This document shows positions 396 through 54,033 of a stretch of DNA of 64,000 nt, piece after piece; position 1 is the first letter of the stretch; the number at the start of each line of letters is the position of its first letter. The notes beneath the pieces were generated by a model, which ran no database searches, was not told the origin of the DNA, and saw only the letters and a program-made list of their open reading frames with translations. Location: contig NC_091132.1 of assembly GCF_040183065.1 (NCBI RefSeq), forward strand, positions 165,320,102 to 165,384,101, given 5' to 3'. The position numbers and the translations under genes are program-made. The stretch comes from Periplaneta americana. Taxonomy: Eukaryota > Arthropoda > Insecta > Blattodea > Blattidae.

Positions 396-488
396 ATGGA
401 CGTGATCAAGATGGAACCTGGGTCCGACCCAATGGGTATACATTCAAGTGGTATCGCAGATGTAGAAGAGAAGAAGCCTTTATCTGAG
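396..488 (+). CDS. First coding exon of a C2H2 zinc-finger gene (MDVIK type), unit 0/A
   Basis: This exon encodes the N-terminus of a zinc-finger protein: 31 codons starting MDVIKMEPGSDP and ending EEKKPLSE. The acceptor AG at 389-390 lies six bases before the ATG, and the donor GTATAT follows at 489, so the exon leaves in phase 0. It contains one sumoylation consensus, IKME, followed directly by proline. The same 31-codon exon type occurs at 41954, which supports it as a real module. It would splice to the phase-0 exon at 1080. Which finger exon it finally reaches (the ruin at 5060 or the array at 15280) cannot be decided from sequence alone. No catalytic function is implied; exons of this kind precede nuclear DNA-binding fingers. 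Confidence 0.8.
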
Positions 489-1079
489 GTATATTGAGAG
501 CATTTACTATTTATTATCTAAATGCCCCATTTATAACTATGGAGCACATTCCTTTGTAATTAATTGTTTTTCTTGCACGAGGTGAAGCACAACTGAAAAA
601 AATGTTGCTGAAAAATGTTCAAAATTATGTACGTGAAGTTCCAAACGGAATTTTATATCAAATTAAACATGTATTGTCACAAATTCATATGAGTACTTAC
701 ATTCAGGAAATATATTACAAACACAAAAGTCTTGAAGTTTTCTTACTCGCATTGATTTTTGGAAGAGCTTTTAATTAATTCAAAACTAAATCAATATTAG
801 CTTACTTAAAATAACATTAACCTTTATATTGCATTGTGGTTGCTTATGATCATACAGACAACATAATATCACACAGTAAAATATATTCTTTTACTAGTAT
901 CTGCTGTGTTACGAGAGTTTTCAGATAAACTGTTTTACTTCTTTTTTTTCGAATAGGTACACGTGAGTTCGAAGACATCAGTGCCAATGAAAATGTGGAC
1001 GGACGTTATAAAAATTCACGGAGTTTTTGTGAACAAATTTTATACTATTTTGTTTAATTATTTTGTTCTTTATTTGCAG
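489..1079 (+). other. Intron
   Basis: AT-rich intron between the 396 and 1080 exons. The frame open from 963 is intron read-through into the next exon. Nothing else is seen. Confidence 0.6.
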
Positions 1080-1217
1080 GAAGGGAATTTATTAGATTTG
1101 GACGTCACGAAAATAAAAACTGAATGTATAGACCACGGATATGACGTGAAATCAGAGGTGACATTTGAGGAAACTGCAGTGCCAATTGTCTTTCCGGTGC
1201 TGAAGAGTGAAGCTGAG
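1080..1217 (+). CDS. Internal linker exon of zinc-finger gene, unit 0/A
   Basis: This is a 46-codon, phase 0-0 exon with acceptor TTGCAG ending at 1079 and donor GTGAGA at 1218. It reads EGNLLDLDVTKIKTECIDHG and continues to FPVLKSEAE. It matches the size and layout of the 46-codon cassettes at 26035, 45003, 52265 and 53896: an acidic start, an (I/V)K-x-E pair, the DPVPISFP-like core (here AVPIVFP) and a terminal (V/L)K-x-E. Three sumoylation consensus motifs are visible: IKTE, VKSE and LKSE. It lacks DNA-binding motifs, so a regulatory linker role is inferred. Being symmetric in phase, it could be skipped without changing the downstream frame. Confidence 0.8.
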
Positions 1218-1918
1218 GTGAGAGCAGTCTATGAAGTGTGTTGGTCGCTAGTTCTCTCTATCTTATTTACTGGCTGGTGTGGCTGTGCAGTAAAGTGACC
1301 AGCGAATGTATTAGTTGCTCTCATTCTTTGAATTTCTTCATGCTGTAGACATTACTAAATCTTTTCCGCCTCATTTTTGGCGTAGTGCCTGCGAACTGAG
1401 TGTTCGGTGATTCATATTAATCTTCATGTTTTCATGGCCAGTGATAATTTTTACCTTGCCAATTTGTGACTTAATAATTTTACTAATCCTGTTTAGTTTA
1501 TTTGAATCATATACGTATTTGCTGGTAATACACTAGAGTGAAAATGGAAGCTCACCTCCTTCATAAAATGTACCCACTACTGACTTCACTCTAAAGTTTG
1601 GATGAGTTGTGGTAATTTTTACTCCCTGACAGCTGTGAGCATCTCAGAACATCGTGCGAGACTCGTCATTTGCACTTTCACTTGTCACAGTTTAGTGCAA
1701 ATGTATTAAGTACGCGATATATCATACAAAATGCAATCAATTCCGTTTTTAATATTTTGCACTTATTTCCAAATCAAGTTTCTGCCAACAATTCTTATAT
1801 TGTATACTGCATTGGTAGAATCTATATTCTAATCTCTGGAGTATATAAACTGCCACGCATTTATTTTCATGTATTACTGTTGTCCTATGTGTCTGTTTTA
1901 CATAATCTTCTGCTACAG
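1218..1918 (+). other. Intron
   Basis: Intron between the 1080 and 1919 exons. The 1670-2002 open frame is the real 1919 exon extended backwards through intron. No repeats recognised. Confidence 0.5.
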
Positions 1919-1998
1919 GAAGAGTTTTGTGAGTTGGATCAAGTGAAAGAGGTCAAACTGGAAGTGACAGCAGAAGAGAATGAAGTCTTGACTGAGAG
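1919..1998 (+). CDS. Pre-finger linker exon (phase 0 to 2), unit 0
   Basis: Exon of 80 nt with acceptor CTACAG before 1919 and donor GTGAGT at 1999. It encodes EEFCELDQVKEVKLEVTAEE and a short tail, ending two bases into a codon. This phase 0-to-2 exit is the same as that of the exons at 11298, 27576 and 58804, which sit just before finger exons. One sumoylation consensus (VKLE) is present. Its natural partner is a finger exon beginning with one base plus ATT-GCA, as seen at 15280 and 28981. In its own unit the finger exon at about 5060 is ruined, so it may instead be spliced to 15280 or be unused. Confidence 0.75.
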
Positions 1999-2088
1999 GT
2001 GAGTATAATATACGAGGCCCTGGTTTGTTGTTGGTTTTACTGCTTTATTTAAATAATGACAACATAAAAAATATTTATAGTTTCTTCG

Positions 2089-3822: not shown

Positions 3823-3855
<33 letters not shown>

Positions 3856-4241: not shown

Positions 4242-4298
<57 letters not shown>

Positions 4299-5059
4299 TT
4301 TATTACTGCTACTGGTACAATTATTTTTATTGTTATTATAATTACGATCTTTTTATTATTACCATTAATCTGATGGCGAGAACATTGCTTAGGATTCATT
4401 GTCCCATTGCACCCATCATCTTTTTAATCATCTCTTTCTAGTATGTCAGCTCCTTTGTTGGTCTTGGCATGTATGCAGATGTAGATGTTGTCTGTCCATG
4501 TCTTCTTTGGAATTGCATAAGATGCAGGTTGGTGCTGGCAGTATTCCAAAGTGGTGAAGATATTTCCCGATTCAAAGATGATCAGTGTTGAGGCAGAAAG
4601 TTGCAACTCATGTTCTCTCTGAAAACTCCGCTGTGTTCAGGACTACAGTCGTCCGACGGTTATGCTGCATTCCTTGTTCCTCTACGTTATTATTTGTGTT
4701 TACTGTTTCTTTTTTTGAACAATGTGGTGTTTTTTTAATGATTAAACCAGAGAAGGTGCATAGCAGGGAAAAGACCGCACTTTGTTTTAAATCTGCACGA
4801 CTTTAACGGCATAATTAGTGCCTTGTTTGTGCACCTGAAATAATCAAAGTTGTGCTTTATTTCCAACAGATGCTTGTTCGTTTTTTAGCGCCGTGTTTTT
4901 TACCTCGAGCATTCTGTATGTTTCTGCATGAATATACATTCCCCTGTATCCCAGTAAGGCGTGCGTTGCACTAAGCTGCCAACTTTGTGATGTGTGACTT
5001 CCCCACTCGATCATAACCTTAAATAGAGCATTGTTGACATTTTGTGTGCTTGCAACACT
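3331..5059. other. Non-coding stretch with two ATT microsatellites
   Basis: Contains (ATT)n runs at about 3822-3855 and 4239-4300. The poly-isoleucine frame at 4205-4399 on the minus strand is a product of the second run. No exon or recognised element is visible. This is probably the intron before the ruined finger exon. Confidence 0.6.
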
Positions 5060-5580
5060 CACAGCTGTACACGTGTGTGGGAAATGCTTTTCATACTCCG
5101 GCAATCTCAAGGAACATTCACGCGTACACACAAACGAGAGGCCATTCGGTTGTGACGTGTGTGGAAAGAGTTTTTCGCAATTGGGAAGTCTCGAGACACA
5201 TTCACGCGTGCACACGGGCGCGAAACCATTCAGGTGTGATGTGTGTGGTAAGTGCTTTTCAAACCCATACTCTCTCAAGAGGCATTCACTCGTGCACACA
5301 AACGAGAGGTCATGACGTGTGTGGAAAGTGTTTCTCAACTTCATCAAACTTGAAAACACATTTAGTGATACACAGTTGAGAAGCAATTCAGTTGTGATTT
5401 GTTTGGGAAGTGTTTTGGACGTCCGGTTAATCTCCAGATGCTTTGTCGTGAAAAACCGTTCAGATGTGATGTGTTTGCAATGGATTTTTCCGGGCTCGGG
5501 AAACCTTAATGTGTATTCACGTATACATACATAAGAGATACTCTTCAACTCTCGTTTGTGTTGAATGCGTTTTTATGGCC
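5060..5580 (+). pseudogene. Ruined C2H2 zinc-finger exon, unit 0
   Basis: Three C2H2 fingers are legible in one frame (5060-5315), with spacing C-x2-C-x12-H-x3-H and linkers HTNERP and HTGAKP. A small deletion then shifts the frame, and a fourth finger (DVCGKCFSTSSNLKTH) is readable up to a stop at about 5379. Beyond that, fragments of two more fingers survive with missing cysteines or histidines. Upstream, the frame is blocked by a stop at 4995-4997, with no acceptor at the expected place. An AATAAA at 5627-5632 could be the old polyadenylation signal. The repeat-bearing intron before it matches the intron before the arrays at 15280 and 28981, so this is their decayed paralog. The fingers differ clearly from theirs, suggesting an older split. 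Confidence 0.75.
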
Positions 5581-6229
5581 CGCACATCTTAATATACTCT
5601 CATTTGTGTACTTAATTATATTTTATAATAAATATTTAATCTGCTTTATTCACTGTATTGTTTTATTATGTTAGCTTTGATTTCTACTTCAGCAAGATAA
5701 TCTTTCTTTGTTCTTAACGTTCATAATAGATTGTCTAGGTTTTTTAATCAGGTAATCTTTTATTACTTTGACTTATATAGTAATTGTAAATTTAACATAA
5801 ATTGTAATTATAATTTTAATTGTATTGTTAATACTATAGTTGTAATCCTCAGGTAGTGGTGAAGATTAGGCTTGATGGCATTATTACTACCAGGTAAATA
5901 AAGCATTATATAGTATACTATACTGTTCATAAGCCAAAAGCCTTATGTTGGATCTTGTGTGGAAGGTCTTTTTATGCTAAGTCGTATCTCAAATGGTGTT
6001 TACGCTTACTGCCTGGCGAGAAGTGATTGAATTGCCAAGTTTTGGCTTAACTTTGTTGAATAGGGGAAGTGTGAAATGCTAAGTTGCAGAAGCTCGATAT
6101 CCTCCTCACTTATGGAATCAGTTCGAAGCAGCTAGGTCAAGTGAACCACGCACATTAACACAGAAGCATGGCACAACCCCTTCCAGAATTTAGCTTGTAA
6201 TAGACATCGCACTGTATACAGACGGGTTG
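5581..6229. other. Intergenic, nothing recognised
   Basis: AT-rich sequence after the ruined finger exon, with no exon or named repeat seen. Confidence 0.4.
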
Positions 6230-7580: not shown

Positions 7581-7632
7581 ATTTCTGTGGTAACACAAGA
7601 CAAATCTAGAAGCTGTAAACTAATTCTGAATT

Positions 7633-9401: not shown

Positions 9402-10521
9402 GATTTCAAAAAGGCATATGACTCGGTTAAGAGTCAAGTTTTATATGATATTCTTATTGCATTTTGTATTCCCAAGAAACTAATTCGATTAATTAAAATG
9501 TGTCTCAGTGAAACATACAGCAGAGTTCGTATAGGTCAGTTTCTATCAGATGCGTTCCCAATTCACTGCGGGCTAAAGAAGGAGATGCACTATCACCTTT
9601 ACTTTTTAACTTTGCTCTAGAGTATGCCATTAGGAAAGTCCAGGACAACAGAGAGGGCTTGGAATTGAACTGGTTACATCAGCTGCTTGTCTATGCGGAT
9701 GATGTGAATATGTTAGGAGAAAATCCACAAACAATTAGGGAAAACACGGGAATTTTAGTGGAAGCAAGTAAAGACATAGGTTTGGAACTAAATCCCGAAA
9801 AGACAAAGTTTATGATTATGTCTCGTGACCAGAATATTGTACGAAATGGAAATATAAAAATTGGAAATTTATCTTTTGAAGAAGTGGAGAAGTTCAAATA
9901 TCTTGGAGCAACAGTAACAAATATTAATGATATTCGGGAGGAAATTAAACACAGAATAAATATGGGAAATGCCTGTTATTATTCGGTTGAGAAGCTTTTA
10001 TCAACCAGTCTGCTGTCAAAAAATCAGAAAGTTAGAATTCATAAAACACTTATATTACCGGTTGTCCTTTATGGTTGTAAACTCACTTTCAGAGAGAAAC
10101 ATAGGTTAAGGGTGTTTGAAAATGCGGTGCTTAGGAAAATATTTGGGGCTAAGAGGGATGAAGTTACAGGAGAATGGAGAAAGTTACATGTCACAGAACT
10201 GCACGCATTGTATTCTTCACCTGACATAATTAGGAACATTAAATCCAGATGTTTGAGATGGGCAGGGCATGTAGCACGTATTGGCGAATCCAGAAATGCA
10301 TATAGAGTGTTAGTTGGAAGATCGGAGGGAAAAAGACCTTTGGGGAGGCCGAGACGTAGGTGGAAGGATAATATTAAAATGGATATGAGGGACGTGGGAT
10401 ATGATGATACAGAATGGATTAATCTTTGCTCAGGATAGGGACCGATGGCGGGCTTATGTGAGGGCGGCAATGAACCTCCTGGTTCCTTAAAAGCCAGTAA
10501 GTAAGTAAGTAAGTAAATGAG
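9402..10521 (+). mobile_element. LINE (endonuclease-type non-LTR retrotransposon), 5'-truncated copy 1
   Basis: The copy begins inside the reverse transcriptase at FKKAYDSV (motif A). A one-base deletion lies in the motif-B region near 9577 (GLK then a shifted frame). A long frame 9659-10438 holds motif C (YADDVNML), the connection region and the C-terminal [14 protein letters not shown] block. The 3' end is a GTAA microsatellite tail at about 10497-10516. Flanking TATTATAA (9394-9401 and 10522-10529) is the target duplication. The paralogous intron at 55480-55530 is an empty site. Clade not settled; an RTE-like assignment is suggested by the microsatellite tail. Confidence 0.85.
9659..10438 (+). 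CDS. LINE reverse transcriptase C-terminal fragment
   Basis: This is a 259-residue open frame within LINE copy 1. It contains the YADD catalytic box, then [31 protein letters not shown] and the [18 protein letters not shown] segment that ends this protein family. It starts within the polymerase, so it is not a working enzyme. Translation would need the frame upstream of the deletion. Its counterpart on the minus strand at 37866-38708 is about 85-90 per cent alike by eye. Confidence 0.8.
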
Positions 10522-11297: not shown

Positions 11298-11371
11298 GAA
11301 GAGCAGAGTGACTTCAATGAGGAGCCAAGGGTGGAAGTAACGGCAGAGGACAACGAGGTTTTTGCCGAAAG
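11298..11371 (+). CDS. Pre-finger linker exon (phase 0 to 2), unit A
   Basis: A 74-nt exon after acceptor TTTGTAG, with donor GTGAGT at 11372. It encodes EEQSDFNEEPRVEVTAEDNE then VFAE, and leaves two bases into an arginine codon. Its paralogs are 27576-27658 and 58804-58886. It is nine bases shorter because the LDTV segment is reduced. It joins in frame to the finger exon at 15280 (AG + G, then ATT GCA GCT). No sumoylation consensus is left. Its upstream partners in this unit are not evident between 5.6 and 11.3 kb, so the likeliest transcript borrows the 396 and 1080 exons. Confidence 0.8.
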
Positions 11372-15279: not shown

Positions 15280-16414
15280 GATTGCAGCTACCATTGAGGG
15301 AACTGTGTCATCAGAATTCGACAGTCTTGAACTTGAATTGAACGGGACTTCGTGTGAGATTCCTAAGAAGTCAGGTTGCCCGGGAAAACCTGTGCGGACT
15401 CACGACGATGAAAAGCAATTGGAATTTGAATTGCCTAAAATATGTTCCTCGAATTCGGCGAAACTGAAGAAGAAACCTTTCAAATGCCAATTTTGTTGTA
15501 AGTGTTTCACGGATTCGGTCAACCTAAGTATACATGACTGCGTGCACACAGGCGAGAAACTTTTCTAGTGTGATATTTGTTGTAAGAGTTTCTGGTATTC
15601 TGGTAACGTAGGAAGACATAAACACCTGCTCAGTGGTGAGAAAGCTTTCAAATGTGAGAGTTGTGATAAGTTTTTCTTGAATTCCAGTAGCCTGACAAAG
15701 CATAAACTCTTGCACACTGACATTTCTTACAACTGTGATGTGTGCGGTATGTGTTTCTCGGTATCAGGGGCCCTGAAGAAGCATAATCGCCGACACACTG
15801 GCGACAAGTCTTTCATATGTGATGTTTGTGGAAAAAGTTTCTCGTGTTCGAGTAACCTAACAAAACATGAACGCATGCACACAGGCGAGAAACCGTTCAA
15901 ATGTGATGTTTGTGGTAAGTGTCTCTCGTCTTCGAGTAACCTAAGAACTCATGAATACTTGCACACAAACGAGAAACCGTTGAAATGTGATGTTTGTGGT
16001 AAGTGTTTTTCGGTATCGAGGGCCCTGAAAAAGCATAATCGCCGGCACACAGGCGAGAAGCCTTTCATGTGTGATGTTTGTGGAAAAAGTTTCTCGTGTT
16101 CGAGTAATCTAGGAAGACATGAACGCATGCACACAAGCGACAAACCGTTCAAATGTGATGTTTGTGGAAAGTGTTTCGCGAGTAGGGGTGACCAAAGAAG
16201 ACATAAACGTCTGCACACAGGCGAGAAACCATTCAAGTGCGATGTTTGTGGTAAGTGTTTCTCGGATTCGAGTGACCTAAGAAGACATAAACGTCGGCAC
16301 ACAGGCGAGAAACCGTTCAAGTGCGATGTTTGTAGTAAGTGTTTCTCGGATTCGAGTGACCTAAGAAAACATAAACGCCGGCACACAGGCGAGGAACCTT
16401 TCAAATGCGCCTAA
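15280..16414 (+). CDS. C2H2 zinc-finger array exon, unit A, interrupted by one stop
   Basis: Terminal exon of a sequence-specific DNA-binding protein expected to act in the nucleus. After acceptor ATTTAG, the frame enters in phase 2 (G-ATT-GCA-GCT) and runs through an acidic linker (SSEFDSLELELNGTSCEIP) into a C2H2 array ending at TAA 16412-16414. Eleven fingers can be counted. Finger 1 is intact. A TAG at 15566-15568 replaces what is lysine in the HTGEKPFKC context elsewhere, a one-base change from AAG. Finger 2 has also lost its second histidine. Fingers 3-11 are intact, with TGEKP-type linkers. Fingers 4-6 and 7-9 form a 252-bp internal duplication. The exon closes with a half finger, FKCA. 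With the stop, only the first finger would be made, unless read-through, a downstream start or an assembly error applies. Confidence 0.85.
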
Positions 16415-21409: not shown

Positions 21410-21796
21410 ATTAGAGAGTAGTAGGAATATGTGAGGAAGAAAGAGCAGTGAAATTCTGTATAGTGGGAGAAAAGAAATACGCGATACCCCAAATTAAATT
21501 CATATTTAGACATATTGCCATGGCACTCATTCTTGAATGTTACTAATTAGCTACAATTAATTATTATTATTAATAAGTAATATTAGAAGAAAGTTAATAA
21601 TGCTAAGAATAATTACAATGGGAAATACAACATTGAATTAAGCGTTGTGAACCTCAATTATGTCTCTGAACACGGCCGTCTTGAAAATATTTCGTAAAGG
21701 ATTTAGTGAGCCCTGACTTTCTTTGTATCGTATAGACGAAGGCTACTGCATGCATAAATTTGTGGACAGAGTTGCTATACGTAGGCCTATGCAAAG

Positions 21797-21907
21797 ATGT
21801 CTTATTACTCCGAAGAATGTGTGGACCAGGCACGTGCTATCATGCCTGAGGTTAAAGTTGAAGATCCGATACCAATTTCAGACCGTATGGTGAAAGAGGA
21901 ACCAGAG
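21797..21907 (+). CDS. First coding exon (MSYY type), unit B
   Basis: A 37-codon exon from ATG 21797 to donor GTGAGT at 21908, phase 0 out. It begins MSYYSEECVDQARAIMPEVK and ends DRMVKEEPE. The start is chosen because the paralog at 51215 has the same MSYY start and exon end, with unrelated sequence not open upstream. It carries two sumoylation consensus motifs, VKVE (then DP) and VKEE (then P). The next exon is 24383. It is an alternative type of N-terminus to MDVIK. No signal peptide or domain. Confidence 0.75.
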
Positions 21908-24382
21908 GTGAGTTAAGCACAAGGAAAGGACTCGTGTTTTTCCGGAGTTTATAATTTATTTTGATTACCACAGGCTCTACATCCTTTCAAAATTTTTGTT
22001 TCATTGCTTGTTACTCTATGTTAGAGATAGAAAAAATCGGATAACCATGTATTTATTATTTATGTCCTGTTGTAACGGAGTTTAATTTTGAACTCTTATC
22101 TGGTTTTATAGGTCAGATTTTAAAAACGAAATTGTAGGTTACACCTTATTCCTAATGGTTGCCAAGCTACATATTCCGAAGCGTAGGTCTTTGATATTAT
22201 GATTAAGTACACGATTTCATTTTTTTTTTTTTTTTTTGTCAGTGTAAAACTCTCAATCATCCTGCGGTTTCAATTGATAAGTCAAACACAGAATAGGAAA
22301 ATGGGGGTGTTAGAATCAGGGAGGTAGTGATGTTTGAGATTATTTTCTTTTGTGCGGTAGTTCATTGAAAGAAAAGTAGGCAGTTTGGTTTTTTCACAGT
22401 TTCCCATCATATAGAACGAATGCAGTCAACTAAAACATATTATGTGCTGACAAGCGAACAGTCCAGATTCTTGTATTTTTAAAAATAAACAATGCAAATA
22501 TTTTTGCTAATATAACACTATGAAAATTATATGCTACTAAATAATGCACAGTAGTATCACAGTCTACTATATACAGTCACGAAGCTTGGGATGATTTTTT
22601 TTGCAAATCTCGCTATAGTTGCTAGCCGCTTGGAGAGTTGTAAGTACTAGGAACAATAGACTGTCCCACAGCCATCGTGATCTAATGCAGGCCGTAAGAC
22701 AGACCATGTAACTCGCTTAACCCGATCACGAAGGGCGGCGTATCAACCATATAAATTAGTTGGAATGCATAAACAGTAACATATGTTTCTCTAAAATGTA
22801 GTGTAATTCCATTAATAAAATTTAAAACAATGATTATGAGACACTTCAGTCATAATTTACTTGCGAGTTAAGATGTAATATTATTTATGGTGTGAAAATT
22901 ACGTTGTTCGTTTGTGTAATGCGTGCCTTTATTTCGATTAAATATTGCGAAATTCTTGTATATTCATTTATGCACAATTCAATAATTTTCAATTGCACCG
23001 TACGGATATTTAGATAAGTTAAAATTACAGGTTATGTTTACTGTACCAGGTGCCCCTTTAGTGATCTCCAGTGCCTTGCCATTCATGTGAAAATTATATG
23101 TTATATTTGCTATATTTAACTTATATTCCTAAATTCGCATTCATACTTTATAATTAATAATAATATCATGTATGATACCCCGTACATTCAATTTGTCTGC
23201 ATTTCAATACTAAAATTGAGTACTGAATTATTGTATTTATATATGTAACACAATTATATGTACACTAATTTCATAGGAATGGTATGGTAAATGTTTTGTC
23301 TAAAATTAAGGAAGGTTGATGTGCTAAATTGAAATCACAATATAAATTCTTTTTTATTCAACCTCAAAATAGCTTCCATTCTAAACTTGAAATTTTGACG
23401 CGAATGGATTATGTTAACATGTAAAATTCTCTTCACATTAAAATAACACAGTTTTGTAATTATTTCTGCAACATATATTTTGCAACGTAACTTATGGACA
23501 CAGTACACTAAATAAAACTTAGCAATGATAAGCAATAAAGTTATAATATAATATATCACTGAGCTCCATACACTGAAATAGAAAACCCGAACAAATATTG
23601 CGGCCTGGTCTAGATCGAAAAGGCATTGACTGTGCCGTATTTCGCAGTTTTGTGAAAAGCTATGTAAACTGTGAAATGTTCGTTATCGGTTTTGATAACT
23701 GTAAATGGCTAAAATACAATAATTTGAATAATACCATATGGGACAAGGAGACGTTTGCAGTACGATAAATTGTAAGAAAAATAGGTTAGAGTTATCCTTC
23801 TTCTGAAAGATCCAGGAAGGTGAGTATATAGAATGGCCTAATTTCTATTTTATGAAAATGATATATAAACCTTATGTATTTCATATATCAATAGCGGAAG
23901 GAAAGTTTTAATTTTTTCAAAAGAACACCATATCGAAATTACAATACATTTCATCATATGCTAGGGAAAGAGTCTGTGATTAGGCGATAGTAGCGATCCT
24001 GGTGGTGAGCAACTATCTATGGATGCATATTTCAACTGTCTATGTTTGCATATTTATTAAGTATTAAGCTTCGTGACTGTATATACTAGACTGTGGTAGT
24101 ATATTATATGCATTAATGGCCGAAATATTCAAAATCTTATGCACAGTTAACTCTGGGTATTCATCATCACAGAAGTTAATAACATGAATAACAAACTTTT
24201 TGCATGAAAATATGCATTTGCATATGAATTCTGACCTTAATTCATAATAATGGAAATCACATGCTGTGGGTTGTGATCAGGCTGTGGCATACAGACACAT
24301 AGAGAGCAACTTGTAAAGTTAGAAGTTGTCTTGTAACACCCTGTAATAAATTTCTCATTTAAGATGTCTCTTCGTACTGCAG
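21908..24382 (+). other. Intron with MITE remnants
   Basis: The first 600 bp matches 51329-51960. A partial copy of the CAGTCACGAAGC MITE lies at about 22570-22690 and another at about 23960-24090. From about 23640 onward the sequence is a near copy of 46135 onward. A poly-T run lies at 22219-22236. No exon seen. Confidence 0.55.
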
Positions 24383-24502
24383 GCACGGGATGTTTTGGAT
24401 CACGATGTGACTGATAAAAAGGAGGAATATGAGGACCAGAGCCAAGATCTCACTTCTGAGATAAAATTTGAGGAAGATCCTGTGCTGAAACGTGAACCAG
24501 AG
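24383..24502 (+). CDS. Internal linker exon, unit B (40-codon cassette)
   Basis: Phase 0-0 exon after acceptor ACTGCAG, with donor GTGAGT. It reads ARDVLDHDVTDKKEEYEDQS then QDLTSEIKFEEDPVLKREPE. Compared with the 46-codon cassettes, it lacks the six-residue PISFPV stretch. It has two sumoylation motifs, IKFE and LKRE, the latter inside P-V-L-K-R-E-P, a full synergy-control motif. It differs by one base (K to T at residue 12) from the exon at 46853, marking a very recent duplication. Confidence 0.8.
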
Positions 24503-26034: not shown

Positions 26035-26172
26035 GAACGGAATTTCTTGGATCACCATGTGAGTGATATAAAAGAGGAATATATGAACCAGAGCCCTGAT
26101 CTCATATCAGAGATAAAATTTGAGGAAGATCCGGTTCCTATTTCATTCCCTGTGGTGAAGTGTAAACCAGAG
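26035..26172 (+). CDS. Internal linker exon, unit B (46-codon cassette)
   Basis: Phase 0-0 exon after acceptor ACTGCAG, with donor GTGAGT at 26173. It begins ERNFLDHHVSDIKEEYMNQS and ends ISFPVVKCKPE. Two sumoylation motifs remain (IKEE, IKFE). The terminal one is lost, because VKCK replaces the VKRE or VKLE seen in sister exons. Closest relative by eye is 53896-54033. It lies between 24383 and 27576, and all junctions keep the frame. Confidence 0.8.
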
Positions 26173-27575: not shown

Positions 27576-27658
27576 GAAGAGCAGAGTGACTTGGACACAG
27601 TGAATGAGGACCCAAGAATGGATCTAACGGCAGAGAACAACGAGAGTTTAACAGAAAC
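27576..27658 (+). CDS. Pre-finger linker exon (phase 0 to 2), unit B
   Basis: An 83-nt exon after TTTGTAG, donor GTGAGT. It reads EEQSDLDTVNEDPRMDLTAE then NNESLTE and exits after two bases (AC), giving threonine at the junction with 28981. It is the same length as 58804-58886. No sumoylation motif. The minus-strand frames over it are shadows. Confidence 0.8.
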
Positions 27659-28980: not shown

Positions 28981-30282
28981 GATTGCAGCTACCAATGAGG
29001 GAAATGTGTCATCAGAATTCGACAGTGTTGCACTTCAAGAAAACGGGACTTCGTGTGAGATTCCTAAGAATTCAGGTTGCCCGGGAAAACCTGTGTGGAC
29101 TGACGACGATGAAAAGCAATTGGAATTTGAATTGCATAAAATATCTTCATCGAATTCGGCAAAACTGAAGAAGAAACCTTTCAAATGCGAATTTTGTGGT
29201 AAGTGTTTCACGGATTCGGTCAACTTCAGAATCCATAATCTCATGCACACAGGCGAGAAGCCTTTCAAGTGCGATGATTGTGGAAAACTTTTCTCAAATT
29301 CTAAGAATTTAAGATCACATATGCACCTGCACAATGGTCAGAAAGCTTTTAAATGTGATGTTTGCGGTGTTTCTCGGTATCGGGGAGCCTGAAAAAGCAT
29401 AAGCACCGACACACTGGCGAGAAACCTTTCATGTGCAAAGTTTGTGGAAAAAGTTTCTTCAAATCCAGTGACTTAACAAGACATGAACGCTTGCACACAA
29501 GCGAGAAACCGTTCAAATGTGATGTTTGCGGTAAGTGTTTCTCGGCATCGGGAAACCTGAAAGACCATAAGCGTCGACACGCAGGGGAGAAGCCGTTCAA
29601 ATGTGATGTTTGCGGTAAATCTTTTTCGGTATCGCGTGGCCTGAATATACATAAGCGCCGACATACAGGCCAAAAGCCTTTCATGTGTGATGTTTGTGGT
29701 AAGTGTTTCACGGATTCGAGTAGCCTAAGAAGACATGAACGCATGCACACTGGCGTGAAACCGTTCAAATGCGATGTTTGTGGTAAGTTTTTCACGGATT
29801 CGAGCAGCCTAAGAAGACATGAACACCAGCACACAGGCGAGGAAACTTTCAAGTGCGATGTTTGTGGAAAAAGTTTCTTGTATTCCAGTGACCTAACAAG
29901 ACATGAACGCTTTCACACAAGCGAGAAACCATTCAAATGTGATTCTTGCGGTAAGTGTTTCTCGGTATCGGGGGCCCTGAAAAATCATAAGCGTCGACAC
30001 ACAGGGGAGAAGCCGTTCAAATGTGATGTTTGTGGTGAGTCTTTCTCGGTATCGTTTGCCCTTAATATGCATAAGCGCCGACATACAGGCGAGAAGCCTT
30101 TCATGTGCGATGTTTGTGGTAAGTGTTTCTCGGTTTCGAGTAGCCTAAGAAGACATGAAAGCATACACACAGGCGTGAAACCGTTCAAGTGCGATGTTTG
30201 TGGTAAGTGTTTCTCGGTTTCGAGTAAACTAAGAAGACATGAACACGTTCACACAGGCGAGGAATCTTTGAAATGCGCCTAA
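28981..30282 (+). CDS. C2H2 zinc-finger array exon, unit B, with one frameshift
   Basis: Terminal exon of a DNA-binding protein, nuclear by family. It enters after TACTTCAG in phase 2 (G-ATT-GCA-GCT-ACC) with linker SSEFDSVALQENGTSCEIP, then thirteen C2H2 fingers to a stop at 30280-30282. Fingers 1-2 are in frame with the exon start. In finger 3 about four bases are missing at 29369 (the sequence GGTAAGTGTTTC of other fingers reads GGTGTTTC here), shifting to a stop at 29390-29392. The remaining ten fingers lie in the next frame (29362-30282), all with intact C2 and H2 and HTGEKP, HTSEKP or HTGVKP linkers. Fingers 4-8 and 9-13 are a 420-bp block duplication. The exon ends LKCA, like unit A. 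This is either a recent pseudogene or a sequencing or assembly slip. Confidence 0.85.
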
Positions 30283-37459: not shown

Positions 37460-39030
37460 TTTGTGAAACACTAATTACATTCATTAGATCTAATGGTGCT
37501 TGACACTTGCACATAATCGTGAGATTTTCATTTTGTGCAAAATTAGGTCAAGACTTAATGAAGTGGCATCTGCAACAAGATATATTTGGCCATTTTCATT
37601 AATAAATCCCTTATCTATGAGGTAAAACCATAAGTAGCCTACATTAACATCCTATTTTTTATACATACTGATTGTAGAACTTGAGCTGTACTAACGATTT
37701 GCCAACTCCGCTAAATGTACAATTTCCTGTATTAAAGAAAATTTTTATGGTATGTATTCATTTACTGACACATGAATTTCTTTCCGACGAGACTGCAAAG
37801 GACCTTATTCTTTCTTCCTATTTTTTTATTGCATTACAGCACTATAACTCATTTTATAACATTACTTACTTACTTACTGGCTTACAAGGAACCCGGAGGT
37901 TCATTGCCGCCCTCACATAAGCCCGCCATTGGTCCCTATCCTGAGCAAGATTAATCCATTCTCCATCATCATATCCCACCTCCCTCAAATCCATTTTAAT
38001 ATTATCTTCCCATCTACGTCTCGGACTCCCTAAAGGTCTTTTTCCCTCCGGCCTCCCAACTAACACTTTAAATGCATTAATGGAGTCGCCCATACGTGCT
38101 ACATGCCCTATCCATCTCAAACGTCTGGATTTAATGTTCCTAATTATGTCAGGTGAAGAATACAATGCGTGCAGTTCTGTGTTGCGTAACTTTCTCCATT
38201 CTCCTGTAACTTCATCACTCTTAGCCCCAAATATTTTCCTAAACACCCTTAACCTATGTTCCTCTCTCAAAGTGAGAGACCAAGTTTCACAACCATAAAT
38301 AACAACCGGTAATATAACTGTTTTATAAATTCTAACTTTCTGATTTTTTGACAGCAGACTGGATGATAAAAGCTTGTCAACCGAATAATAACAGGCATTT
38401 CCCATATTTATTCTGTGTTTTATTACCTTCCGAGTGTCGTTTATATTTGTTACCGTTGCTCCAAGGTATGTGAATTTTTCCATCTCTTTAAAAGATAAAT
38501 TTCCAATTTTTATATTTCCATTTCGTACAATATTCTCGTCATGGGACATAATGATACACTTTGTCTTTGCGGGATTTACTTCCAAACCTATCTCTTTACT
38601 TGCTTCCAGTAAAATTCCTGTGTTTTCCCTAATCGTTTGTGGATTTTCTCCTAACATATTCACGTCATCCGCATAGACAAGCAGCTCATGTAACCTGTTT
38701 AGTTCCAAACCATCTCTGTTATCCTGGACTTTCCTAATGGCATACTCCAGAGCAAAGTTAAAAAGTAAAGGTGATAGTGCATCTCCTTGCTTTAGCCCAC
38801 AGTGAATTGGAAACGCATCTGACAGAAACTGACCTCATATTATGACATTATCACGATGAAAATCAAATTATTTTACAAAAATCCTGAGACATTCAATGAA
38901 GCATTCTTTGGTAACAGCACATAATCAATTGTATGTGGAAACAGTGATGATCCTAGCTACGTCTCTGGATGCGATTCAGGATTGAAACAAGCAGCAACTT
39001 GAGTGGCGATAGAAAACAACACAGGTATGT
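37460..39030 (+). repeat. Third, diverged copy of the 17750-18330 / 33720-34240 block, split by a LINE
   Basis: Left part 37490-37864 and right part 38835-39010 follow the same order as the other two copies (ATTTGGCCATTTTCATTAAT, CTTATCTATGAGGTAAA, and later CATTCAATGAA and CTACGTCTCTGGAT). This is an older partial unit duplication. Confidence 0.65.
37865..38834 (-). mobile_element. LINE, 5'-truncated copy 2
   Basis: Same family as 9402-10521, minus strand. The tail is (GTAA)n on that strand at 37865-37880. One long frame (38708-37866, 280 residues) contains [21 protein letters not shown] and [13 protein letters not shown] with a complete C-terminus. A short frame upstream carries the [12 protein letters not shown] box. 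The 16-bp target duplication (37849-37864, 38835-38850) matches at 14 positions. Truncated just after the motif-A region. Confidence 0.9.
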
Positions 39031-41953: not shown

Positions 41954-42046
41954 ATGGATGTGATAAAGGCGGAACTCGAGGTCGACCCACTGTCTCTAGA
42001 AACAAGTGACGACACAGATGAGGATGAGAAGAAACCTATATTTGAG
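41954..42046 (+). CDS. First coding exon (MDVIK type), unit C
   Basis: A 31-codon exon, exactly the length of 396-488. It begins MDVIKAELEVDPLSLETSDD and ends EKKPIFE before donor GTATAT at 42047. The acceptor lies at 41947-41948, five bases before the ATG, and the exon exits in phase 0. The sumoylation motif of the other copy (IKME) is weakened to IKAE, and the following proline is lost. The next compatible exon is 45003. It could compete with the MSYY start at 51215 for the shared 3' exons. Confidence 0.8.
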
Positions 42047-44247: not shown

Positions 44248-44254
44248 TTAACCA

Positions 44255-45002: not shown

Positions 45003-45140
45003 GAACGGAATCTTGTGGATCAGCTTGTGACTGGTATAAAGGAGGAATATGAGGACCAGAGCCATGATCTAACATCTGAGATAAAATTTGAGGAAGGTCC
45101 AGTGCCTATTTCGTTCCCTGTGGTGAAACTTGAACCAGAG
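45003..45140 (+). CDS. Internal linker exon, unit C (46-codon cassette)
   Basis: Phase 0-0 exon after TACTGCAG, donor GTGAGT at 45141. It starts ERNLVDQLVTGIKEEYEDQS and ends ISFPVVKLEPE. All three sumoylation motifs are intact (IKEE, IKFE, VKLE), the last inside P-V-V-K-L-E-P. It follows the MDVIK exon at 41954 and precedes the 40-codon cassette at 46853, so a 41954-45003-46853 chain would be in frame. Confidence 0.8.
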
Positions 45141-46852: not shown

Positions 46853-46972
46853 GCACGGGATGTTTTGGATCACGATGTGACTGATACAAAGGAGGAATAT
46901 GAGGACCAGAGCCAAGATCTCACTTCTGAGATAAAATTTGAGGAAGATCCTGTGCTGAAACGTGAACCAGAG
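46853..46972 (+). CDS. Internal linker exon, unit C (40-codon cassette, recent copy)
   Basis: Phase 0-0, acceptor ACTGCAG, donor GTGAGT. It reads ARDVLDHDVTDTKEEYEDQS and then exactly the text of the 24383 exon. The two sumoylation motifs IKFE and LKRE are kept. It is a new cassette donated by the unit-B copy or vice versa. Whether it is spliced into the unit-C transcript depends on the disrupted sequence after 47.94 kb. Confidence 0.75.
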
Positions 46973-47940
46973 GTGAGTGCAACACAAAGCATGCACTGTG
47001 TGTTCTTCTCCCAGTGTTTATCTTGTGTGTTCATTGTAACGGACTCTGCCTCTTAACAACAGTTCTTGCAGCGCCTTTTAGTTTGTGATACTAGCAGAAC
47101 AATCTTAACTAGTTTTTTTTGTTTATATCTTGTTGCATTGTTATCTCGTTTTTGTTTTAAATTTGAAAAGAAATTGGTTGTTATAGTTACTTGTAATGAC
47201 TGCCATAGCTGCACATTCCCACAGTGTATTATCACAGTTTAGTATATACAGTAATGAAACGAAATATGTAATAATTATGATTCCATAGATAGTTGCTAAC
47301 CACTAGGATCGCTACTATCGCCTCATTACAGACAATGCAAAATAGTACCTGTACAGTCTATTGTTCCTAGCAACATCACTACTCAAGCTTCGTGACTGTA
47401 TTTACTAGAATGTGGGATTATTTGGTAATGTGTTGACCTTGACTTCATTTCTTTTTGTTTGTCTATGTTTTTGTGTAAAATTCTGGATGCGTTTTACGGT
47501 TTTCAAACGATTATTTATTATGCGGTACATATATGCATAAATATTATCACCCTCTCTTCATTTGTCTTTTCACCCATTGTCTTTAAGTATTTACATGTCT
47601 GGGATATTTCTTTTCTAGTACACTATGCTGCCAGTATATATAGAAAAAATATTTTGCAACTGTAGTGTAAATTGTGGGGCTTATTTGGCTCTAAATTTTG
47701 CAAAGATGTTCTGATGCATACAGACACGTACATATATCAATGTATTATTTATTTTACGTACGTTATTCTGTCAATGAAGTGCGTTCAATTTTGTTATAGA
47801 TAGAGAAACATAAAGTTAAAATCTTCAATAGGCAAATCTTGAAATTATTATAAATAGAAATAGAGGTTTTTAATTTTCCCCACTCATACGTGTCGAAAGG
47901 ATATTTCGAAATGCTTGTTGTCGAAGTGTGTGGTAGTTCC
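46973..47940 (+). other. Intron copy, contains MITE
   Basis: Near copy of 24503-25470. It holds the CAGTCACGAAGC MITE and ends abruptly at the Ty3/gypsy fossil. Confidence 0.6.
47242..47409. mobile_element. MITE with TATACAGTNACGAA ends, copy 2
   Basis: Same element and position as 24767-24933, carried along by the segmental duplication. Confidence 0.75.
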
Positions 47941-50571
47941 GTGGTGGATGGCCGAGACCAACAGAGTGGCAACGGACCCGGAGAAGCTACAAGCCGTCAG
48001 AGGATGGCCGAGACTGAAAGATAAGCAGGGGTTGCGCCGCTTTCTCGGCCTCTGCACTCATTACAGAACGTTCGTAGCTGGGTATGCCAACATAGCTAAG
48101 TATCTAACCCAGCTGACCGAGGGGAAACGACAATGCCAGTGGACGGACGAGACGGAATCATCCTTCCAATCGCTGAAAGAGGCTCTCTGCACACTCCTGT
48201 ACTGGGATATCCCATCTCTGGAAGGAAGTTCACGCTCGACACGGACGCTAGCAACGTAGGCGTCGGCGGAGTACTCTCTCAGGAACAGGACGGGCAAGAG
48301 AGGGTGATTGCCTACTTCAGCCGAACATTATCCAAGGCTGAGAGAAACTACTGTGTGACACGTAGAGAACTTCTTGTCATTGTGGAAGCCCTGAAGCATA
48401 TCCACAAATATTTGTATGGCCAGGAATTCCATCTGAGGACAGACTATTCTGCACTCACCTGGATATTGGGCTTCAAGAATCTGGAGGGGCAGACCTCCCG
48501 TTGGGTTCAACGTCTGCAGGAGTACAACTTCACATCTTAAATCCGACAAGGGAAGAAACATTCCAATGCTGATGCCCTATCACGACGCCCGTGCCCGGAT
48601 GGCTGCAAACACTGCCTGAAAGTTGAAGAACGAGACGGCGCCCACGCAATCAGAGCAATTGCCGCCCAGCCGAGCCCAGGATGGGATAACGCCGTCATAA
48701 GGAGGGAGCATCTGGAGGACCCAAACATAGGACAGCTTCTTCGTGATGTGGAGTCCGGCCAGAGACCAGTATGGGCCGATATTGCCAACCGTAGCACCAC
48801 TTACAAGAGCTACTGGGCCCAGTGGGAATCCTTCACTGTCAAGGACGGTATCCTGAAGAGGATTTTGGAGACGGCCGATGGAAGGACCCGCATAGAACAA
48901 CTTGTCATGCCCAGGAGCAAGGTGAAGGCAGTGCTGGAGGAGACTCATGCTGGAGTGACTGGAGGCCACCTGGGAGCCAACAAGACATTGGACAAGTTAA
49001 GGCAGAGGTTCTACTGGTTGCATCAGAGAATCGACACGGAACAATGGTGCCGAAGATGCGACACCTCTGCAGCCAATCGCGGACCTAGGACACGCAGCAG
49101 GGGAGCCATGCAGCAGTACAACGTGGGAGCTCCTTTTGAGAGGATCGCCATCGACGTTGCTGGACCGTTCCCGGTCACGGATCGCGGGAACCGCTACCTT
49201 CTAGTCGCCATAGATTACTTCACAAAATGGCCAGCAGTGTACGCGATTCCCAACCAAGAGGCTTCGACGGTGGCCGACGCGCTGCTTGACAACTTCATCT
49301 GCCGATTCGGGATGCCCCGGGAATTGCATAGCGATCAGAGGCGCAACTTCGAATCCAACCTGGTGGGAGAATTGCTCGAGCGTCTGAGGGTGCATAAAAC
49401 CAAGACCACTCCCCTCCACCCACAGTCCGACGGCATGGTGGAATGCTACATCAAAACCGTGGAAGAGCACCTGCGGAAGGTGGTGTCCAACCATCAACGA
49501 GACTGGGATGCCAGAGTCCCACTGTTCCTCTTGGCCTACAGAGCTTCGGTCCACGATACAATATGGATGACACCGGCCAACATGGTCTTCGGGAGAGAGC
49601 TGCGCCTGCCCTGTGATCTGCTGTTTGGCACGCCACCCAGCGCCGACTAGCCAGCGACTATGTGGCGGAATTGACCGAGAAGTTGAATGGAGTCCACCAA
49701 CTGGCTAGAGAGCACCTCAAGATGGCCAGAGACAGGATGAAAGTGCGCTATGACAGATTAGCCAACTCTGCAGGATTCCAGGAGGGCGACCTGGTGTGGC
49801 TGTATCGACCTACCAGGACCAAAGGAAAATCACCGAAGCTGCAGCTTGCCTGAGATGGATCATACCGCGTGGTGACTCGGATCAACGACGTGGTGTACCG
49901 CATCCAGCGACAACCCCGAGGGTGGTGGTGCATATGGACCGAATAGCAGCCTACCAAGGGACTGCCCGAGACGAGCAGTCCTAAGGAGGGAGCAATGTGA
50001 CGGCCACGTGAGATTCGATCTCACGACCGACGGAGAAGAGGCATCTGCTTCCTGGGACATGTACTATGGCGGAGAGAAGAGAGGGGAAAGGGCGACGCGG
50101 CGAGGGGAGGTTGCGCGCGCATCTTCTGCTTGCCTAGAGAGGCCGAGAAGTCCGTCGAAGTGGAAAAATCGCGAACTCGAACTTTCTCGGTTACGTCGCT
50201 GTGGTTATAAATTACGGACGCGAATGAACGACAGATTCATTCATGATTAGTTCAGTCAGTAAGCCAGTGAACAGAGCAAGCCAGCCAGTCTTGTGTACCG
50301 GAGCATTAGAAGGCCTGAGTTCGAGTGCAGTGGACCGCAGTTGGAGGGACCTGAGTTCGAGATACTGTGAACTTGAGTGACTGAGCTAGAAGAACTGAGA
50401 ACTGACAGTTCTGTGTTGTAAATAGTGCTTTGTGAATATTAGTTAAGATTAACAGTTCATTGTTGTTCGTAATAGTCCAAGTAAATTGACATTGTCGTTT
50501 GTGGAGTGCAATAACGAACGCTGTGTTGCTGTGCGGAGAGCAAATCCCATTGTTGAGATAATAAAATTACA
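47941..50571 (+). mobile_element. Ty3/gypsy LTR retrotransposon, 5'-truncated fossil
   Basis: In order it holds the end of the reverse transcriptase (thumb/connection, about 47945-48220), RNase H (about 48225-48540, with a D-T-D-A-S start), the integrase zinc finger and core (about 48890-49560), a short tail region to 49983, a purine tract at 49984-49995 and a 3' LTR. Gag, protease and most of the polymerase are absent. Coding is broken in a few places (roughly three to five). High GC relative to its surroundings marks it as foreign and fairly young next to the intron sequence. No 5' LTR or target duplication is present at the left edge, which coincides with the end of the 23.6-25.5 kb paralogy. 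Confidence 0.9.
49996..50571 (+). repeat. 3' LTR of the Ty3/gypsy fossil
   Basis: 576 bp, beginning TGTGACGGCC and ending AAATTACA, directly after a purine-rich tract. Shares blocks with the solo LTR at 14127-14989. The sequence right of it matches the MSYY-promoter block of unit A. Confidence 0.8.
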
Positions 50572-50575
50572 TTGT

Positions 50576-51214
50576 TTCTAGTAATAAAATTTACAATATA
50601 ATAATAACGTCATATGTTTAATACCTTTGGAAGTATTTGATGTTACTTGTGCGTAAATATAATTTTTAAGGGTTTGTTCGTCAACGAATTCGTAGGGTAA
50701 TGGCTATGATAGTTGTTCACTAAACGTAAGGTTCTAGGATCGAATCATTGCGTATTTAAAGGTACCGGTAAGTTAGATATTCCTATTTAACATAAAGTAG
50801 TCAGTGGAATAAAGTAATTAGAAGGAAAATAGAGAAATAGTAATATGTAGGGAAGAAAACGCAGTGAAATGGTATAGGATGGGAGATGGGAAAAATGTGG
50901 TATCCCAATTAAATTCATATGTAGAAGTATTGCCATCGCACTGATTCTTGGATGTTATCGATTAGTTACTATTAATTAGTATTAATAAGTAATATTAGAA
51001 GAATATTAATAATGCTAAAAATAATTACAATGAGGATTAATCTTTGAATTGCAATCGTTCTTAACCTCAATCTATCTGAACACGGCCGCCTTGAAAATAG
51101 TTCGTAAAGGATTCTGTGAGCCCTGACTTTCCTTTTATCGTTATGATGAAGGACGTACCGGTACTGCATGCAAAAATATAACGACAGAGTTGCTACACAT
51201 AGGGCTACACAGAG
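50576..51214 (+). other. Promoter-proximal block of unit C
   Basis: Aligned with 20935-21796, minus the MITE at 21181, up to the MSYY ATG. It includes GAACACGGCCGYCTTGAAAAT and GTGAGCCCTGACTTTC, conserved close to the start, which suggests a transcribed 5' leader. Confidence 0.5.
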
Positions 51215-51328
51215 ATGTCTTATTACGCCGAAAAATATGTGGACCAGGGACATGCTCTCGCGTCAGAGGTGAAAGTTGATGAAGATCCGATGCCAATTTC
51301 ATTCAGTATGGTGAAAAATGAACCAGAG
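51215..51328 (+). CDS. First coding exon (MSYY type), unit C
   Basis: A 38-codon exon from ATG 51215 to donor GTGAGT at 51329. It begins MSYYAEKYVDQGHALASEVK and ends FSMVKNEPE. It is one codon longer than its paralog at 21797 (VDEDP against VEDP). One strict sumoylation consensus, VKNE followed by P, remains; the upstream one has become VKVD. It feeds into 52265. Confidence 0.75.
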
Positions 51329-52264
51329 GTGAGTGGAGCGCAAGAGATGCACTGATGTTCTTCCAGAGTTTATATTTTATTTTGATTACCACAGGCACTA
51401 TATCCGATCAACATTTTAGTTGCAGTGCTTTTTACTGTATGTTAGAGATAGAAGAAATTAGATAACTATGTATTTATAATTTATGTCATGTTGTAGCGAA
51501 GTCTAATGTTGAACTTACCTGGTTTTATAGGTCACAATTTAAAACGAAATTGCAGATTACGCCTTATTCTTGATGGTTGCCAAGCTACACATTCCCGCAG
51601 TGTAGGTCTTTGATATTATGCTTAAGTACATGAATTCATTTGTTTTTCTTTTTGTCTGTGTAAAACTCTCAGTCATTTTGCGGTTTCAATTCATAAGTCA
51701 AATATAGAAGAGGAGAATAGGGGTGTTAGAACCAGGGAGGTAGCGATGTTTGAGATTATTTTCTTTTGTACAGTAGTTCAATGAAAGAAAAGTTAGCAGT
51801 GTTGGTTTTTTTTACAGTTTCCCATCTTATAGAAGGAATTTGTAGCCATCGAATGCAGTCAACCAAAACATATGTGCTGACAAGAGAACAGTCCAGATTC
51901 TTGTATTTTTTAAATAAACAATGCATATATGTTTGCTAATATAACACTATGAAAAATATATGCTACAATATAATGCACAGTAGTATATTATATGCATTAA
52001 TGACCGAAATATTCAAAAGCTTATGCACAGTTAACTTTGCGTATTCATAATCACAGAAGTTAATAACATGAATAACAAATATTTTTGCATGAAAATATGC
52101 ATTTGCATATAAATCTGCCGTTATCGACCATAATGTAAATCACATGCTGTTGGGTGTGATCAGGCTGCGGCCTACGGACACATACAGAAGAACTTGTAAA
52201 GTTAAAAGTTGTCTTCTAACACCCTGTAATAAATTGCTCATTTAAGACGTGTCTTTTACTGCAG
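51329..52264 (+). other. Intron
   Basis: Matches 21908-22560 and then 24100-24382, skipping about 1.5 kb present in unit B. Confidence 0.5.
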
Positions 52265-52402
52265 GACTGCAGTCTTGTGTATCAGCCTGTGACAGGTATA
52301 AAGGAGGACTATGAGGACCACAGCCAAGATGTCACATCTGAGGTGAAATTTGAGAAGGATCCGGAGACAATATCGTTTCCTGTGGTGAAACGTGAACCAG
52401 AG
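52265..52402 (+). CDS. Internal linker exon, unit C (46-codon cassette)
   Basis: Phase 0-0, acceptor ACTGCAG, donor GTGAGT. It starts DCSLVYQPVTGIKEDYEDHS and ends ISFPVVKREPE. Sumoylation motifs VKFE and VKRE are present, the latter inside P-V-V-K-R-E-P; IKED replaces IKEE. It occupies the position of the 24383 exon in unit B but keeps the six residues that exon lost. Confidence 0.8.
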
Positions 52403-53895
52403 GTGAGTGCAACACAAAGAATACACTATGTCTTCTTCCTCCTGTGTTTATCTTGTGTGTTCATCATAACGGACACTGCCTTTTTACAATAGTACTTCAG
52501 CGCCTTAAAGTCTGTGATAGTGGCAGAACGAAATTGCTCGTTATACTTGCTCGTAATCGTTGCCATAGTTACACATTCCCACAGTATATTGTCACAGTCT
52601 AGTATATACAGTCACGAAGTTCAATATGTAATAAATATGCATCCATAGATAGTTCCTAACCACTAGGATCGCTACTATCGCCTCATTACATACAATGCAA
52701 AATATCACCTGCACAGTCTAGTGTTCCTAGCAACCTCACAACTCAAGCTTCGTGAGTGTATATACAAGACTGTGGTATTATTTTGATAATGTGTTGTACT
52801 TGACTTGATTTATTTTTGTTTGTCTAGGTTTTTGTGTAAAATTCTGGATGCAATTTACGGTTTTCAAATGATTATTTATTATGCGGTACATATATGCATA
52901 ACTATTATCACCCTGTCTTCATTTGTCTTTTCACCCATTGTCTTTAAGTATTTACAAGTCTGGGATATCTCTTTTCTAGTACATTATGCTGCCAGTATAT
53001 GTATAGAAAAAATATTTTGTAACCGTAGTGTAAATTGTGGGGATTATTTGGTTGAATTCCAGAAGGTACTCTAAATTTTTCAAAATGTTCTGATGCATAC
53101 AGACACGTACATATATCAGTGTATTCGTTGTTTTACGTACGTTTTTCTGGCAATGAAGTGCATTCAATTTTACCTTAGATAGAGAAACTTAAAGTTAAGG
53201 ACTGCAGTTGGAAAATCTTGAAACTATTAGAAATAGAATTAGAGGTTTTTAATTTTGCCCACTCTTACATGTCGAAATGATATTGTGAAATGCTTGTTGT
53301 CGAAGTGTGTGGTAGCTCAGTGGTATAATGTTTGAGTACTTGCAGGTACGAAACAAAATGCAGCTAGTGTGATAACTCAGAATAAGCGAACCTTATAAAA
53401 GGAGGTTATGGGTGTTAGAGTCAGGAAGGTAGGGATGTTTGGGAATGTGTCTTTTTGTGCACCAGTACAATGGACCAAAAACAGGCAGTGATGTTTTATC
53501 ATAGTTTCCCTTCATAGATAAGTATGTTCTATCCATCCAGTACAGTTAACAAATTTCTTATTGTTCTATTTTATTTTTCTGCAAAAGAATTCTAATTTTG
53601 GTTTTAATCCAACACAATCTTTAAAATATGCTACAATATATGCGCAATAGTATATCATATGGAGGAATGGCCGAAATATCCACGATTTGCTTTTTGTATT
53701 ATTAGAGACCTTCATAACAAGTCTAAAAAATCTTTCAGCATAAAAAATTTGCATTTGTACATGAATTCTCGCCCCATTGCTCATACTGTTAACCTGTTTC
53801 ATGCAGATATATAGAGAGAAAGCGTGTAATGTTAGTAATCGTCTTCTAATGCCTTGTAATAAATTTCTCATTTGAGACTTCTTTTTATACTACAG
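52403..53895 (+). other. Intron
   Basis: Paralogous to 24503-26034. Contains a MITE. Confidence 0.5.
52598..52770. mobile_element. MITE with TATACAGTNACGAA ends, copy 3
   Basis: The left end TATACAGTCACGAA and right end TTCGTGAGTGTATATA are the best preserved of the copies here. Same intron position as in unit B, so the insertion predates the B/C split. Confidence 0.75.
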
Positions 53896-54033
53896 GAACG
53901 GAATTCCTTGGATCAGGATGTGACTGGTATAAAAGAGGAATATATGAACCAGAGCCCTGATCTCATATCCGAGATAAAATTTGAGGAAGATCCGGTGCCA
54001 ATTCTTTTCCCTGTGGTGAAACGTGAATCAGAG
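53896..54033 (+). CDS. Internal linker exon, unit C (46-codon cassette)
   Basis: Phase 0-0, acceptor ACTACAG, donor GTGAGT. It begins ERNSLDQDVTGIKEEYMNQS and ends ILFPVVKRESE. Three sumoylation motifs (IKEE, IKFE, VKRE); the proline after the last is changed to serine. Ortholog-like partner of 26035-26172, where the last motif is lost instead. Confidence 0.8.

Follow-up and report, generated by a model that had tools for sequence, protein, structure and literature searches.

Duplicated linker exons of a probable cockroach C2H2 zinc-finger family are rich in ψ-K-x-E motifs, candidate SUMO-acceptor sites

Analysis of a 64,000-nucleotide stretch of the Periplaneta americana genome (forward strand of NC_091132.1, 165,320,102–165,384,101; hereafter the window, in whose positions all coordinates are given) revealed a series of short protein-coding exons, located by profile search of six-frame stop-to-stop segments of at least 10 residues. 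There are 15 of them, all on the + strand: nine cassettes of the A/B classes, four short C exons and two first exons (E1). They are best read from their sequence as encoding the N-terminal linker of a tandemly duplicated family of C2H2 zinc-finger proteins, and are called linker exons here. Together they hold 23 strict ψ-K-x-E motifs (ψ being I, L or V) in 559 residues, where 5000 composition-preserving shuffles within exons gave 1.51 ± 1.19 and none reached 23. This roughly 15-fold excess is real and striking, and has mostly been multiplied by exon duplication. Up to position 54033 there are 14 linker exons, with 532 amino acids and all 23 strict sites; the 15th (58804–58884) has none. The next profile matches are at noise (best E 0.41 for E1, 7.9 for C and 8.3 for A/B), as is anything resembling a cassette on the minus strand of the whole window in the same search. 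An E1-like string at 8343 (E 3.6) was rejected because it is without a start and is missed by the E1 profile. The linker exons and finger arrays are as follows.

396–488, + strand: E1a, first coding exon (MDVIKMEP...), one IKME site
1080–1217, + strand: A1, cassette of 46 amino acids, IKTE, VKSE (displaced) and LKSE
1919–1996, + strand: C1, short last linker exon with one VKLE, entered in phase 0 and left in phase 2 (coordinates are whole codons; two further bases precede the donor)
about 5076–5546, + strand: degenerate finger array, with stops and frame changes
11298–11369, + strand: C2, short linker exon without a site
15281–16414, + strand: Z1, C2H2 finger exon, in-frame stop at 15566–15568
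21785–21907, + strand: B5a, cassette, VKVE (strict synergy-control form, defined below) and VKEE
24383–24502, + strand: B1, cassette with a 6-residue gap, IKFE and LKRE
26035–26172, + strand: B2, cassette, IKEE and IKFE; site 3 is VKCK
27576–27656, + strand: C3, short linker exon without a site
28982–30282, + strand: Z2, C2H2 finger exon, frameshift near 29365
41954–42046, + strand: E1b, first coding exon (MDVIKAEL...), one IKAE
45003–45140, + strand: B3, cassette, IKEE, IKFE and VKLE (PVVKLEP, strict synergy-control form)
46853–46972, + strand: B4, near copy of B1, IKFE and LKRE
51203–51328, + strand: B5b, relative of B5a, VKNE; site 2 is VKVD
52265–52402, + strand: B6, cassette, VKFE and VKRE (PVVKREP, strict form); site 1 is IKED
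53896–54033, + strand: B7, cassette, IKEE, IKFE and VKRE
58804–58884, + strand: C4, short linker exon without a strict site, last linker exon of its unit

The A/B exons (40–46 residues) are preceded by AG, start at a codon boundary and finish in GAG followed by the donor GTGAG and T or A. They are thus phase-0/phase-0 exons, so that addition or removal of one leaves the reading frame intact. In the C exons the phase is 0 at entry and 2 at exit, which matches the acceptor of the finger exons. These phases suggest a unit order of E1 or B5, at least one A/B cassette, one C exon and one finger exon. Each B5 exon has an in-frame ATG within it (MSYY...) and an in-frame stop just upstream, and the B5 polypyrimidine tract is the weakest (9 of 20, vs. 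11–16 in other internal exons); for these reasons B5 may be an alternative first coding exon derived from a cassette.

Three finger arrays lie in the window: the degenerate one, Z1 and Z2. In Z1 one finger precedes the stop and in Z2 two fingers precede the frameshift; these interruptions could reflect pseudogenes or assembly errors. Of the four pieces scanned from Z1 and Z2, three matched Pfam zf-C2H2; the exception was the part of Z1 ahead of its stop, which holds a single finger. In the last unit (E1b to C4) the linker exons are intact, and its fingers would fall beyond the window. Any claim about the fingers therefore rests on unseen sequence, the arrays being interrupted or beyond the edge. 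In the five of 15 linker exons scanned against Pfam, each alone, no family was found up to E 1, ZAD and KRAB included. Cysteine makes up 0.9% of linker residues, and the Rfam search gave no match at the gathering threshold.

The linkers are acidic (E 19%, D 11%, K 7%), and the shuffles preserve this composition, so the 23 sites stand against 1.5 expected; the possibility raised by an earlier sequence-only reading, that the motifs are no commoner than such a composition predicts, is not borne out. Its count of 22 strict sites in 11 linker exons was reproduced when the four C exons (104 residues together, one site) were left out, in 455 residues where it had given about 442. None of five control patterns was enriched: E-x-K-ψ (3 vs. 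1.5, P 0.20), ψ-R-x-E (0 vs. 0.5), ψ-E-x-K (1 vs. 1.5), ψ-x-K-E (0 vs. 1.5) and ψ-K-x-D (2 vs. 0.9, P 0.21). The Z1 finger-exon pieces (376 amino acids) contain no strict site, and the phospho-dependent SUMO motif ψ-K-x-E-x-x-S-P does not occur in the linker exons. That most cassettes end on a motif, as previously noted, holds for A/B cassettes (eight of nine) and fails for E1 (none of two) and C exons (none of four).

The same reading had assigned many sites to the P-x-x-V-K-x-E-P form. We took as the strict synergy-control form P or G, zero to four residues, I or V, K-x-E, zero to three residues, and P or G. It fits three of the 23 sites (in B5a, B3 and B6), or five if Leu is allowed (adding B1 and B4). 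The motif requires its flanks, according to excerpts of PMC3554661; the label fits single sites, three to five of 23, and not the whole set.

By alignment, the 23 sites fall into about six homologous positions: E1, C1, cassette sites 1, 2 and 3, and the displaced VKSE of A1. The sites are not independent, and most are copies of these originals. The six positions explain all 23 sites if the few ψ-K-x-E strings of an ancestral linker were simply multiplied within a loosely constrained acidic spacer, with no motif-specific selection, an explanation that we hold to be somewhat unlikely. Five small sets of 3–5 exons still hold 3–9 sites vs. 0.3–0.7 expected (P 0.0032 to 0 in 5000), and the single set that takes strictly one exon from each class (E1b, B2, C4) has three vs. 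0.32 (P 0.0032), which argues against mere copying. Further, E1 and C1 carry sites yet escape the A/B profile (C1 is matched only at E 32).

The duplication itself can be followed at the nucleotide level. B1 and B4 are near copies (86–100% in 100-base steps) whose products are one residue apart, and repeats extending over exon and flanking intron link B1 with B6, B2 with B7, B5a with B5b and C3 with C4. Since these paired exons and introns match, a single block seems to have given rise to both B5a-B1-B2-C3 and B5b-B6-B7-C4. Between 24096–25798 and 51980–53640, identity to B6 is 81% in the step that covers the bulk of the B1 exon and 81–96% in the other steps; the exon is kept no better than the introns, which hints at a mosaic history or fast exon change. 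The ratio of nonsynonymous to synonymous substitution rates (Ka/Ks) between A1 and six B cassettes (B1–B4, B6 and B7) is 0.25–0.41, indicating purifying selection across this older split, contrary to what a loosely constrained spacer would give. For B5a/B5b it is 1.58.

Ubc9 reads ψ-K-x-E directly, delivering the small ubiquitin-like modifier (SUMO) to its lysine. The strong motif enrichment, the acidic and probably disordered context and the slower change of the Lys columns described below point to SUMO-acceptor linkers: acidic, probably disordered segments, duplicated as exons, that carry predicted Ubc9-recognised lysines. We put this at about an even chance. The ancestral A/B cassette would probably have carried three ψ-K-x-E positions and then been duplicated whole as a phase-0/phase-0 exon. 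Ubc9 would most likely recognise its lysines, site 3 above all, as sites for SUMO conjugation, and a DNA-bound protein could then bear several SUMOs together, altering cofactor recruitment.

The context may fit such a role. Net charge is −4 to −10 per exon, and 14 of 15 exons lie on the disordered side of the charge–hydropathy boundary, A1 being the exception. AlphaFold2, run on the nine-cassette alignment with B3 modelled, gave a mean predicted local distance difference test (pLDDT) score of 66 and a predicted template modelling score of 0.16, with a low-confidence helix at residues 2–15 and no other element; site 1 lies at the helix end, and the blocks holding sites 2 and 3 have pLDDT 66–79. 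These models suggest that the linker is probably disordered. According to excerpts of PMC6018634, SUMO2/3 shows a preference in human cells for KxE and for disordered regions. At least two acidic residues follow within the next six positions at nine of 23 sites.

An acidic activation domain would account for the same charge and for the spaced I, V, L and F: coactivators would be recruited by acidic residues with hydrophobics spaced among them, and the lysines would be either incidental or modulatory. Glu columns outside the motif (26 and 46) are conserved equally to or more than the motif Glu, yet column 46 also overlies the splice donor, and Lys is the best conserved motif residue, which is unexpected for such a domain; we regard this alternative as improbable. 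It is more doubtful still that the true target is another short linear motif, such as HP1-binding PxVxL or a SUMO-interacting motif. B3 contains PVVKL, which fits PxVxL, and VVKL; PxVxL is found in one of 15 exons and SUMO-interacting-like strings in two, and CtBP and EH1 patterns are unmatched in the linker exons. In flies, the ZAD-ZNF protein Oddjob has a PxVxL in its linker that does matter for localisation, as excerpted from PMC7655104.

Conservation was scored as changes per column on an exon tree of the nine cassettes, with uneven branch support (39–100); two further hand-written topologies gave the same result. The main tests leave B5 out of columns 1–15, where its alignment is doubtful; this was our choice, as were the merged residue classes. 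The tests overlap and their P values are uncorrected, and some of the nine cassettes are very close. Both motif residues had been expected to change more slowly than their neighbours. This held for Lys (0.33 changes per column vs. 1.84 elsewhere, P 0.019) and not for Glu (1.00 vs. 1.79, P 0.21). K and E columns together had 0.67 changes vs. 1.90 (P 0.008–0.010 on three trees); ψ and x, with 2.33 each, are not slow. With I/L/V/M, D/E and K/R merged, ψ, K and E columns had 0.44 vs. 1.54 (P 0.005–0.006), x remaining fast. In a uniform-constraint simulation, in which changes are spread evenly and the root sequence is assumed, 14.2, 12.7 and 11.3 motifs survived 80, 100 and 120 changes, vs. 20 observed.

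Site 3 has Lys in all nine cassettes, with six different residues at x and synonymous AAA/AAG changes, and makes the best case of any site. Site 2 has Lys in eight of nine; A1 is without it and has VKSE four residues upstream. Site 1 is non-strict in B1 and B4 (ψ), B6 (E to D) and B5a and B5b (doubtful alignment), and the other non-strict cassette sites are site 2 of B5b (E to D) and A1 (K) and site 3 of B2 (E to K). The data thus favour the lysines, not the glutamates, with weak to moderate strength.

The few changes in motif K and E columns also appear at the nucleotide level (1.17 vs. 3.08, P 0.005), and GAG is invariant at A/B exon donors, as would be seen if purine-rich codons (AAA, GAA, GAG) were kept as splicing enhancers and the motifs were a by-product. 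Two-fold synonymous changes, however, number three or four (by tree) in the six motif K/E columns vs. three in 12 others. Being no rarer there, they disfavour this explanation, which we consider very unlikely.

Several results weigh against the SUMO-acceptor reading. Off-register patterns are enriched as well, less strongly: ψ-K-E (6 vs. 1.6), ψ-K-x-x-E (6 vs. 1.4), ψ-K-x-x-x-E (12 vs. 1.4) and ψ-x-K-x-E (8 vs. 1.5). We attribute this to E-rich strings multiplied by duplication, which inflates the motif count too. Compared with other D/E columns, those of the motif Glu change no more slowly (P 0.42). Together, ψ, K and E have 1.22 changes vs. 1.86 over all columns (P 0.10). Inclusion of B5 in all columns gives P 0.058 for K and E and 0.12 for K. 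Against hydrophobic and charged columns only, K and E give P 0.035 with B5 partly excluded or 0.11 with it included; in this restricted pool, ψ, K and E give P 0.25 (residues) or 0.09 (merged classes) with B5 partly excluded, and 0.36 or 0.28 with it included. The simulation gives P 0.055, 0.017 and 0.003 for 80, 100 and 120 changes, the first being the parsimony total. Among the six B cassettes Ka/Ks is 0.42–1.75, from few changes (14 of 15 pairs; B1/B4 is undefined). The last of these results, the simulation at 80 changes and the B5-inclusive tests (P 0.06–0.12) are also what inherited copies in an unselected spacer would give, and the slower Lys columns are not. From the literature, SUMOylated lysines in ordered exposed regions are described as less conserved than other lysines (PMC6018634, excerpts), so that the conservation test is not decisive either way. 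Excerpts of PMC9890238 describe a Drosophila screen in which SUMO motifs were no commoner in repressive fragments than in others, and cite alongside it a human study that does implicate such motifs.

SUMO conjugation of these linkers, its regulatory effect and the direction of that effect are matters that we infer. The proposal of SUMO-dependent repression in the sequence-only reading guesses at the direction, and its suggestion that cassette number tunes repression sets a second, hypothetical guess upon the first. In its widest form the idea would make SUMO capacity a countable, exon-encoded trait, in which whole phase-0 cassettes, each with at most three acceptor lysines, are gained or skipped by duplication and alternative splicing; the number of SUMOs that could be borne would then vary between paralogs and between isoforms, setting how the fingers act on chromatin. 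We consider this form unlikely. By strict-site count, five hypothetical exon sets of the window would range from 5 to 12. Were the lysines modified, the family would provide a natural series in which one transcription-factor linker varies in its number of SUMO sites, and in which a dose effect could be measured. Such exons were not described among the literature matches listed, most subscription papers lying outside the search.

Relatives were sought in viral, bacterial/archaeal, phage and plasmid collections, none of them meant to hold insect genomes. The cassette alignment had no relatives in viral contigs or bacterial/archaeal genome contigs, the second Z1 piece none in phages and B7 none in plasmids, and the A/B profile gave no match to solved structures up to E 10. 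An alignment of the finger-exon leader had a sole match among the viral contigs (29% identity), which, from the surrounding open reading frames (positions 4500–6000 examined), was judged a chance match in a virus or prokaryote.

The window also contains mobile-element remains and a tandem array. Between B4 and B5b lies a retroelement open frame with integrase domains (48544–49647, + strand; Pfam rve and Integrase_H2C2), and adjoining open frames at 47864–50250 look to us like the same element. Two copies of a reverse transcriptase fragment resembling long interspersed nuclear elements (Pfam RVT_1) lie at 9512–10435 (+) and 37869–38834 (−), and three 157-base units form a tandem array at 2429–2902 (96% matches).

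The predicted linkers can be compared with four known systems, each as far as the excerpted sources describe it. In the synergy-control motifs of nuclear receptors and other factors studied by Iniguez-Lluhi and Pearce, ψ-K-x-E sites flanked by P or G likewise lie N-terminally in a DNA-binding factor, where SUMO curbs activation when a promoter has several binding sites (PMC3554661, PMC3373386); those factors have one to three such sites, whereas here the two-sided flank is found at three of 23 (five with Leu), in a linker known from its sequence. Insect ZAD-ZNF proteins have a disordered, fast-evolving linker ahead of a C2H2 array (PMC7655104), comparable with the probably disordered one here, but the scanned linker exons have no ZAD and the linker here consists of repeated cassettes. 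KRAB-ZNF proteins, with TRIM28, are finger proteins that act via SUMO, as is predicted here; there the SUMO is on the recruited TRIM28 (PMC7915335), and the scanned linker exons have no KRAB. FOG-2, a finger cofactor, has four SUMO sites outside its fingers, three of them ψ-K-x-E (PMC3511347), and thus resembles the cockroach linkers, with their several candidate sites outside the fingers. The cockroach sites differ in being dense and in lying in duplicable exons, and SUMOylation of FOG-2 weakens repression, so that the sign of a SUMO effect is not universal.

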